Position numbers and translations under genes: made by a program. A stretch of DNA of 44,471 nt from Geobacteraceae bacterium (GTDB lineage Bacteria; Desulfobacterota; Desulfuromonadia; Desulfuromonadales; BM103), in NCBI GenBank assembly GCA_024640545.1, contig JAHEEU010000003.1:1-44471 (forward strand), read 5' to 3'. Every line of letters begins with the position of its first letter. Position 1 is the stretch's first letter. The notes beneath the pieces were generated by a model, which worked only from the letters and a program-made list of their open reading frames with translations, was not told where the DNA came from and did not search any database. Shown here piece by piece: positions 25,931 through 28,913 of this stretch.

Positions 25931-26320
25931 TTAATTTGCTCTGAGTTCCGACTCGATAAGCACCTGCTTCAGCCTTTCCAGGGTCATTTCCAGAATTCTG
26001 TTGTCCTGTGCGAGCAGGTTTTTCTCAGCTAGGCATTTGCTAAGGCCCTGATTTTCCTGTCGCTCCTTGGCATGCTGTTGTAATTTTTGTTCGGCCATAT
26101 CGATGATGCCCTCAGCCCTGTTTCGCCATTCTCCTTGCGGATATTGCTGCGGCAAGAGGTTCAACGTGGTCAGATCGCCGTTCGCAAGGTATTGGTCAAG
26201 CCCCTGCGCGAATAATTCTGCTTCATGCGCAGCGGGCTTGGACATAGGCAGGCCGCTGCACCCGATCAACGACAGGCAAACGAAGAGCCACAGGGACCAG
26301 CGGGTGATTGCCGTTGTCAT
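25931..26320 (-). CDS. Hypothetical lipoprotein
   Basis: Lipobox LSLIGC; coiled-coil C-terminus. Start overlaps the stop of the upstream GGDEF gene by 4 nt. Confidence 0.7.
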   Translation of the reverse strand: MTTAITRWSLWLFVCLSLIGCSGLPMSKPAAHEAELFAQGLDQYLANGDLTTLNLLPQQYPQGEWRNRAEGIIDMAEQKLQQHAKERQENQGLSKCLAEKNLLAQDNRILEMTLERLKQVLIESELRAN

Positions 26321-27645
26321 GATAGTTGCTTTCTGCGATCAATGAGGTAGTTGCTGTTCTTGAGCTGCTTGAGGTGCTCTTTCATCCTAGCACAATTGTG
26401 ACTGATGCTTAAAGGCGAGGGCTGTTCCATATTTTCGGAGAGGGTGATGGCAATGGAAATGCTCAGCAGCGGAAAGGAGCGTTTGATGCCGTACCTGTCA
26501 TAGCCGATGATAAAACCGGCGGCTAAATCTTTCTGATCGTAAAGCTCGGGGACTTGGCTGTCGAAGTTTTTGATGATGTCCTTGGCAAGCATTTCGGCCG
26601 ACTCAGGGTCCGACAAGATGACATAATCATCCCCACCTATGTGACCGACCAAATCGTTATCGCCGCCGTGCCGTGCAACAGCCTCGCGGAGCAGGTTGCC
26701 GACCCGGTTGATGACATCACTACCGGCTTTGTAACCATAGTGGTCACCGTAAGCCTTGAAATTGTCCAGATCGATGTAAAGATGAGCGAACGGCCTTTTT
26801 TCTGCAATGCGCTGTTCCAGTTCGCGGTCAATCGCCAGGTTCCCCGGCAGCCGGGTCAGGGGGTTGGCGTCCAGGCTCAGCTGTTCCAATTCTAAAAGCT
26901 TCCTCGCCATACTGGCAAAATCCTGGGCCAGCTGACCGAACTCGTCATTGCTGCGGATATCAATCGGAGTTTCGAATTTCCCAACCGCAATGTCCTGCGT
27001 GGCTTTTTGCAGGGCTTTGACCGAACCGTGGATACTGGCGATCACAGTGAGGGCGACGGGAGCCGAGAGAGCGATGCCGAAGAGCGTGATCAGCAGAGTC
27101 AAGCGGTAGGCTTTGCTGCTCTGCAGCGACAGTTCTTGTAAATCCTTATCCAGGGCGACCTGGTGCTGCGTCCAGAGATCGGAGAGTAATACAAGCAACT
27201 GGCTGCGGAGGGGCGTTGTCGTCGTCTCGGCAAGGTTCTCTGCTCGATCCCAGTCGCCCTTGGCAAGGAACTGCATGAGGAGACGGGCCTGTGAAGTATA
27301 GTTTTCGACTGCGGTAGGAAGTGCTGAGAAATAGACAGGTTGAAAAGAATCCTTCGTGCCAATGAGCAGGTTGTCGAGTTCTGCAGCGCGCCGTTCAAGT
27401 AACCCAAATAGCGTTGTGTCGCGCAGAATGAGGAGCTGTTTTTCAAGGTTCTCCTGGCCCAACAGGTTCTGCCGGAGATCTTGCAACAGGATAAAGGCAT
27501 GAAACTGACCGCCCACAAGCTGTTCAGTGCGGCGGTTATGGTCATGCAGGCTGACCAGGGCGTAGCCCAGTGCCAGCAGGCTGAAAGCTATGATGACCAG
27601 GTAGCCGAGGGCGACTTTTCTGGTTACCGTGAAATAAGAGCTCAT
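26317..27645 (-). CDS. HAMP-GGDEF protein, candidate Hypr-type (cyclic GMP-AMP) nucleotidyl cyclase
   Basis: N-terminal TM, periplasmic region, TM, HAMP-like VKALQKATQDIAVGKFETPIDIRSNDEFGQLAQDFASMA; catalytic YIDLDNFKAYGDHYGYKAGSDVINRVG...GHIGGDDYVIL. Confidence 0.88.
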   Translation of the reverse strand: MSSYFTVTRKVALGYLVIIAFSLLALGYALVSLHDHNRRTEQLVGGQFHAFILLQDLRQNLLGQENLEKQLLILRDTTLFGLLERRAAELDNLLIGTKDSFQPVYFSALPTAVENYTSQARLLMQFLAKGDWDRAENLAETTTTPLRSQLLVLLSDLWTQHQVALDKDLQELSLQSSKAYRLTLLITLFGIALSAPVALTVIASIHGSVKALQKATQDIAVGKFETPIDIRSNDEFGQLAQDFASMARKLLELEQLSLDANPLTRLPGNLAIDRELEQRIAEKRPFAHLYIDLDNFKAYGDHYGYKAGSDVINRVGNLLREAVARHGGDNDLVGHIGGDDYVILSDPESAEMLAKDIIKNFDSQVPELYDQKDLAAGFIIGYDRYGIKRSFPLLSISIAITLSENMEQPSPLSISHNCARMKEHLKQLKNSNYLIDRRKQLS

Positions 27646-28160: not shown

Positions 28161-28913
28161 TCAGATGCATCTATGCAGCAGCAAGCTCTGGGTCTCGTAG
28201 TACAAGGCAGGGTTATTTTTTTGGAGAGAGCGTTCGATACTTTCTAAGCTGATCAGATAAGGCGCCCGAATACCGTGGTAATCACGGGCTGGTCCAATTT
28301 GTTCGAAACTGATGCCCCAGCGCTTGAGAATCACATATAGCCCTTTGGCCATGACACTGAACCAGTGAGTCAGACCCATGCGCTTGCTCTCCCGGTACAA
28401 AGAGAGATACAAGCCACGCACCAGTTGTTGTTCGAACTTTCGGCTAAAAGCGCGAATATTTTCCTTTATGGGGTGAATATAATTGGCCAGAGCCTGTTCC
28501 GTGGCGAAAATTGCCCGTTCGATGGCACGACATCGAAACTCCTTGGACACGGCCAGGCGGGAAATTTCAGCAACCTGCTCACAGCGAACCCCCGGCGGGT
28601 ATTGATTGATGTCGAAATGCCGTTCGATCGGCAATGGCCGCTCGGAACCCAGGATAATCCTGGCGGCGCCGATCACTTCGTCAGAATGCTTCGGGATGGC
28701 ACAGAAGTGAATTGAATCTTGATCATATTCATCCTGTTCCAAGCCGTCCGGATGGTCATCCGGTCGTTCGAACCCCCATTCGTTCACATAAACCTGATAT
28801 CTCAACCGGCAAATATCCTTGAGAGTAGGAGTAAAGCCCTCCCTGCCGTCGATGACACTGTAAGTAAAAAGCTCACCGGTCATAAAGGTTGCCTCCCTGA
28901 TTTCTTCCGACAA
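28161..28913 (-). CDS. PEP-CTERM/exosortase-associated acyltransferase-like (FeeM/LuxI-related GNAT) protein
   Basis: LRYQVYVNEWGFERPDDHPDGLEQDEYDQDSIHF, VIGAARIILGSERPLPIERHF, EISRLAVSKEFRCR, GLTHWFSVMAKGLYVILKRWGISFEQIGPARDYHGIRAPYLI. Confidence 0.8.
   Translation of the reverse strand: MSEEIREATFMTGELFTYSVIDGREGFTPTLKDICRLRYQVYVNEWGFERPDDHPDGLEQDEYDQDSIHFCAIPKHSDEVIGAARIILGSERPLPIERHFDINQYPPGVRCEQVAEISRLAVSKEFRCRAIERAIFATEQALANYIHPIKENIRAFSRKFEQQLVRGLYLSLYRESKRMGLTHWFSVMAKGLYVILKRWGISFEQIGPARDYHGIRAPYLISLESIERSLQKNNPALYYETQSLLLHRCI

Follow-up and report, generated by a model that had tools for sequence, protein, structure and literature searches.

A pair of overlapping minus-strand genes in the window (the whole 44 471-nucleotide stretch that was analysed, from a Geobacteraceae bacterium) was interpreted, with a probability of about 60%, as a two-gene envelope-sensing cyclic-dinucleotide module in which a GSU1937-family Hypr cyclase with a QseE-type sensor is combined with a QseG-like lipoprotein. 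The anatomy of the locus, its conservation, the homology of the sensor and the conserved gene pair were observed; the published cGAMP synthesis is that of a family member, GSU1937 of Geobacter sulfurreducens. What is new is that a cyclase family is coupled, in a conserved manner, to a QseE-type sensor and a QseG-like lipoprotein, and among publications of the searched library joining QseG and diguanylate, judged by titles and abstract openings, none had QseG/QseE–cyclase coupling as its subject. GSU1937 is the second cGAMP synthase of Geobacter and is most important during Fe(III) respiration. The resemblance to QseE/QseG suggests how enzymes of its class are switched on; the conserved lipoprotein and QseE-type sensor offer a directly testable switch for these synthases, one that would tie cGAMP to cell-surface conditions.

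Anatomy of the cyclase gene

The product of the first gene of the pair is a membrane protein in which a helical sensor in the periplasm is combined with HAMP and a catalytic domain of the GGDEF type (Table 1). Pfam matched GGDEF at residues 262–359 (51.3 bits) and HAMP at residues 203–251 (39.4 bits), and the periplasmic part gave a weak, sub-threshold match to 4HB_MCP_1. In an AlphaFold model (20 family sequences, mean pLDDT 78) a membrane helix leads into a long periplasmic helix; the periplasmic domain is helical and the C-terminal domain mixed. The best structural matches of the C-terminal domain in Foldseek were GGDEF proteins; the matches listed for the cyclase model were all of this kind and give no information on the sensor. 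The preliminary description had recognized the HAMP domain and the periplasmic sensor regions, both of which were recovered here; the lipoprotein gene that overlaps the cyclase gene, and the kinship of the sensor with QseE, had escaped it.

Table 1. Features of the cyclase–lipoprotein gene pair, in window coordinates
Feature	Position	Strand	Remarks
Cyclase gene, very probably GSU1937-type Hypr (GGDDY)	26317–27645	minus	442 aa, ATG start
Periplasmic helical sensor domain, residues ~30–180, homologue of the QseE/GlrK sensor	27106–27558	minus	
Segment GQENLEKQLLILRDTT, residues 63–78, counterpart of QseG-contacting residues 67–82 of QseE	27412–27459	minus	
HAMP domain, residues 203–251	26893–27039	minus	Pfam
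GGDEF-type catalytic domain, residues 262–438	26332–26862	minus	
Gly300 codon, at the guanine-contacting Asn (PleD N335/GacA N339)	26746–26748	minus	Alignment
Ser309 codon, at the guanine-recognising Asp (PleD D344/GacA S348)	26719–26721	minus	Alignment
GGDDY signature motif, residues 337–341	26623–26637	minus	
Small lipoprotein gene, 129 aa, putative QseG-like partner	25931–26320	minus	ATGA overlap with cyclase stop, 26317–26320
Lipobox Cys21 (..SLIGC-S..)	26258–26260	minus	Ser at +2 fits outer-membrane sorting
Long C-terminal helix of lipoprotein, conserved end LERLKQVLIESELR	25937–26131	minus	

The best NCBIfam match of the cyclase, to YfiN/DgcN, lay below the cut-off. YfiN/DgcN, too, is a membrane cyclase of HAMP-GGDEF build, and its partner in the envelope is the lipoprotein YfiB; it differs from the window pair in its sensor and lipoprotein families, in being controlled through YfiR and in being a canonical diguanylate cyclase. 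Upstream of the cyclase gene, a PEP-CTERM/exosortase-associated acyltransferase (TIGR03694, 173.7 bits) is encoded on the minus strand at 28161–28913.

Active site, family and probable product

Within the segment YIDLDNFKAYGDHYGYKAGSDVI, Ser309 stands opposite PleD D344 and GacA S348 and Gly300 opposite PleD N335 and GacA N339. This region was ungapped in an alignment of 134 sequences that included canonical GGDEF proteins from the same genome, so that neither reading frame nor register is in doubt and a register shift bringing Asp to the specificity position is excluded. Both substitutions and the GGDDY motif had been proposed in the preliminary description at the codons and residues of Table 1, where the alignment with PleD and GacA placed them as well. 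In a family alignment of 31 members Ser309, the catalytic residues D292, K297, D339, D340 and K426 and the flanking D301, Y303, G304 and Y305 (in addition to D292 and K297) were invariant. Ser309 is thus the Ser/Thr replacement of the guanine-recognising Asp by which Hypr enzymes are defined, and the earlier Hypr call is supported both by this residue and by membership of the GSU1937 family. The motif GGDE[F/Y], with Asp in third place, has been reported to be exclusive among Hypr enzymes (PMC6456294); the third-place Asp is present in the cyclase and the fourth residue is Asp. The published activity of GSU1937 with its GGDDF is an exception to that motif. The second, sugar-face base contact made by GacA Asn339 (PMC6456294) is absent, Gly300 taking its place; Asn339, present in the GacA structure yet common to canonical GGDEF domains, is not a Hypr-distinguishing residue. 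At the cross-dimer position (Tyr304 in GacA, Arg in canonical enzymes) an alignment by eye placed Asn269. The cyclase therefore appears to lack the Arg that favours c-di-GMP, and other cGAMP-biased Hypr enzymes likewise have no Arg there (PMC6456294). No equivalent of the phosphate contact PleD R446 was found, and the RxxD I-site is absent (..GGDNDLVGHIGGDDY..), so that the c-di-GMP feedback known for GacA would not be expected.

The family was searched for among 98 relatives first and then in 277 genomes of the class Desulfuromonadia, of which 239 gave matches (protein search, E ≤ 1e-30). Ser occupied the position of Ser309 in ∼118 of the 134 aligned sequences; Asn was seen in a single sequence (L069), and Asp was confined to GGEEF/GGDDF domains of canonical or outgroup proteins and to L129, a nested paralogue. 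The position of Gly300 was held by Asn in most sequences, by Gly in 21 and by Ser in 12, and the motif was nearly always GGDDY in the clade of the window protein and GGDDF in the Geobacterales clade. The loss of Asn and the GGDDY motif, taken in the preliminary description as marks of an atypical protein, are accordingly family traits: GGDDF/Y is near-universal and changes of Asn to Gly or Ser recur. In a quick tree, built without the columns just described and carrying a warning of long branches, the Ser-bearing GGDDF/Y sequences formed one group (115 rows, SH-aLRT 80), apart from the genome's two Ser-type proteins with a canonical motif, and the loss of Asn at position 300 required at least five changes. 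The dN/dS ratio of the catalytic domain was 0.08–0.17 (window gene versus three orthologues), similar to that of the rest of the protein; together with the conservation, this indicates that the GGDDY domain is maintained rather than decaying and excludes an isolated mutation or a pseudogene. These natural variants (Asn, Gly or Ser at 339; Ser, Asn or Asp at 348) provide a ready series for the study of base choice in GGDEF domains. Two members stand out: the paralogue L129 (G117:C40), within the Ser clade, carries Asp at the specificity position with its lipoprotein gene kept and appears to have reverted naturally to a site like that of diguanylate cyclases, and L077 (G051:C80) has GGDYY in place of GGDDY and is possibly a catalytically dead copy.

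GacA (GSU1658), named earlier as the example of the class, holds as a functional analogue. It was rejected as a direct relative since it falls in a separate clade; Ser arose separately in the clade of the cyclase, and the relative is GSU1937. The founding Hypr enzymes GacA and Gmet_1914 (PMC6456294) share with the window protein the Ser at 348 and the missing cross-dimer Arg, and differ in their separate clade, canonical GGDEF motif, Asn339, cytoplasmic REC input and RxxD I-site. GSU1937, which has HAMP, Ser348 and GGDDF, has been described as a second cGAMP synthase (PMC8835794). Its published deletion primers (PMC8835794) were translated by eye; the peptides obtained, VQKLIAS and TPGSNY, are the signatures by which the two ends of the family's proteins, N-terminal and C-terminal, are recognized. 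The primers match an orthologous locus of Geobacter sp. AOG1 (L110) with few mismatches, the outer primer falling in an adjacent nadC-like gene; in 48 related genomes, probably without G. sulfurreducens among them, no exact match was found, only matches with 2–3 mismatches. These coincidences argue strongly that the published GSU1937 belongs to the family of the cyclase, and very probably the window protein is a Hypr enzyme of the GSU1937 type. It is 32–37% identical over its full length to the Geobacterales orthologues, with which it clades and shares its domain order. GSU1937 resembles it in family, in membrane attachment and HAMP, in Ser at the specificity position and in the GGDD motif, and GSU1937 orthologues are likewise followed by a lipoprotein gene; most Geobacterales orthologues carry GGDDF and Asn339, whereas the window protein, at ∼35% identity, carries GGDDY and Gly300.

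GSU1937 contributes to cGAMP in vivo, most strongly on Fe(III) citrate, and its deletion lowers a cGAMP-selective reporter; when its GGDDF domain was fused to GacA, one of four fusions made cGAMP in E. coli, together with c-di-GMP (PMC8835794). The window protein, in its Gly300 form, is likely to make cGAMP. Exclusive production of cGAMP is not supported, the active GSU1937 fusion having made both dinucleotides. The full-length GSU1937 protein and the other three fusions were inactive in E. coli (PMC8835794), and the silence of the full-length protein favours a degenerate GGDEF domain that has lost catalysis and is kept for nucleotide-binding signalling or as a scaffold, as do the usual view of GGDDF domains as inactive (PA3258, for example; PMC8835794), the lost Asn and the absence of the R446 contact and the I-site. 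Such a domain is nevertheless unlikely: neither its metal ligands nor the acidic residue of the motif vary, purifying selection on it is strong, no EAL or HD-GYP domain is attached to the cyclase, and GSU1937 affects cGAMP in vivo with the same GGDD core and with orthologues that also lack an R446 equivalent. A G-to-A mutation of the motif (GADDF) moreover killed the GSU1937 fusion (PMC8835794).

A further reading takes the protein as mainly a diguanylate cyclase in which Ser309 is tolerated. The conservation of Ser would have no obvious reason if GTP were the only substrate, both guanine-specific contacts are altered, the cross-dimer Arg is missing and the GSU1937 deletion lowered a reporter selective for cGAMP (PMC8835794); we regard this reading as improbable, even though the active GSU1937 fusion gave a c-di-GMP level comparable to that of GacA in E. 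coli (PMC8835794) and the canonical GSU3350 remained a pure diguanylate cyclase after an engineered D-to-S change (PMC6456294). Highly improbable, finally, is a broadened purine cyclase in which Ser309 without Asn300 accepts enough ATP to make c-di-AMP the main product. The Hypr enzyme GacA already makes c-di-AMP in vitro, and the residue that serves as its second base contact (PMC6456294) has given way to Gly or Ser on at least five occasions within the family, but position 300 is Asn in most members and the lost contact may merely weaken binding.

The lipoprotein and the QseE-type sensor

The lipoprotein gene was directly downstream in 88 of 100 full-length Ser-type loci (A1 profile match), a count made over loci with at least 240 bp downstream; a few of these loci occur in more than one collection, and truncated loci are among the 12 negatives. 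It was found next to none of 15 short L010-type paralogues and in one of 12 Asp-classed loci, namely L129, nested in the Ser clade. The lipobox has no Asp at +2. The protein has a single long C-terminal helix, the end of which is among its most conserved parts, and a short stretch that resembles BamD/TPR proteins, with weak matches to TIGR03302 in 21 of 28 members. BamD itself was rejected as an identity, the likeness being confined to the N-terminal part and the scores lying far below the cut-off. A Foldseek search with the lipoprotein model gave no match at E < 1. Compared by hhalign with a QseG-like set (mostly from Desulfuromonadales, with E. coli QseG), the lipoprotein profile scored 90.8%, against 2.4% when reversed; a direct comparison with E. 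coli QseG alone gave 4%, and the C-terminal parts alone did not score. The similarity rests partly on the signal peptide and coiled coil. The QseG-type architecture was found (a lipobox, a helical N-terminal part, a long C-terminal helix and a gene adjoining a sensor gene), and what is claimed is a QseG-like role and architecture, membership in QseG being unproven.

When the profile of the periplasmic domain was searched against 177 635 PDB sequences, QseE sensor chains ranked first and second (E = 0.06 and 0.12). The same profile, in a search of 117 genomes, also matched proteins of ∼480–500 aa (E = 1e-9 to 1e-4). Those inspected (L156 and L158–L161) were histidine kinases followed by a lipoprotein gene, with an ATGA overlap in four of the five; at the three loci where the full gene order was seen (L156, L158 and L159) a gene for an NtrC-type regulator came after the lipoprotein gene, giving qseEGF operons. 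Several of these qseEGF-type operons of Desulfuromonadales (L156–L161) adjoin a radical-SAM-like gene that is conserved; in the genome of the window no such operon was found. By hhalign the sensor matched the QseE sensor sets at 97.2%, with an E value of 4e-11 that is flattering because the QseE set was collected with the same sensor profile, and at 95.6% with the membrane helices trimmed; column shuffles gave 0.1%, the reversed profile 6% and E. coli GlrK alone 31%. Taken together, the profile comparisons indicate that the periplasmic domain of the cyclase is homologous to the QseE/GlrK sensor.

In the QseG–QseE structure the C-terminus of QseG touches QseE mainly at residues 67–82 (PMC12691602). 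The corresponding residues 63–78 of the cyclase ranked third in conservation among 136 placements in the periplasmic part, with Glu in 76 of 98 and Leu in 85 of 98 sequences at their positions and Gln in 59 of 61 in the GGDDY clade. The QseE(GlrK)–QseG–QseF system (PMC12691602) is thus like the window locus in its homologous four-helix periplasmic sensor with HAMP, in the lipoprotein gene directly downstream and in the conserved QseG-contact positions. Its output is a histidine kinase, whereas that of the window locus is a cyclic-dinucleotide cyclase without a response-regulator gene; the window lipoprotein is also shorter than QseG and only weakly alignable with that of E. coli.

Proposed mechanism and genomic context

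The likeliest mechanism is that the QseG-like lipoprotein acts on a QseE-type sensor whose output is a cGAMP cyclase in place of a histidine kinase. The first gene would supply the inner-membrane Hypr cyclase, in which the QseE/GlrK-type periplasmic domain is linked through HAMP to the GGDDY domain with Ser309; the second, probably translated by ATGA coupling, would supply the lipoprotein of QseG-like build, with its small BamD/TPR-like part and long C-terminal helix. The lipoprotein, probably located in the outer membrane, would bind the dimeric sensor in its membrane-distal part by way of the C-terminal helix and report the envelope or cell-surface state to it. HAMP would then alter the GGDDY dimer, which would join ATP and GTP to 3′,3′-cGAMP, possibly with some c-di-GMP, because, as we propose, Ser309 reads either purine and Gly300 drops the second base contact. 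The contact between the two proteins, the signal and the product of the window protein are what we infer here. Effectors of this cGAMP would include the single A20-type GEMM riboswitch of the genome. More tentatively, at a little under even odds, a QseG/QseE-type module may have been recombined onto a cGAMP cyclase across the whole class, an outer-membrane lipoprotein gating synthesis without a phosphorelay, and the Gly/Ser-300 subclades, lacking both guanine-specific contacts, may be the most base-promiscuous GGDEF domains known.

Four of the ten GGDEF proteins of the genome carry Ser at the specificity position and are Hypr-like: the window protein and those at L008, L007 and L010 (contigs C96, C170 and C91). 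L008 is a REC-GGDEF protein close to GacA and looks like its counterpart, L007 is a GAF-GGDEF protein that is also GacA-like, and L010 is a short GGDDF paralogue.

A search of the genome for cGAMP-type GEMM riboswitches, as suggested in the preliminary description, returned nine GEMM-I aptamers, eight with G at the Vc2 G20 position, a proportion that favours c-di-GMP as the main product of the cyclase, and one with A, which is read in the literature as the cGAMP-type letter (PMC6274999). This sole A20-type aptamer (L011:1500–1590, minus strand; C237:4099–4189 of the same genome) precedes a hairpin resembling a terminator and a gene for a REC-PilZ protein, and its type recurs in the sister genome G001 (L175) and in G026 (L174). 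No riboswitch in the window reached the Rfam thresholds. In the sister genome a GEMM-I aptamer (G001:C5:80526–80611) shares the strand of the cyclase orthologue and lies ∼3.6 kb from it, and on contig C168 of the genome of the window three c-di-GMP-I aptamers, all G20-type, are arranged in tandem (L014:1502–1955).
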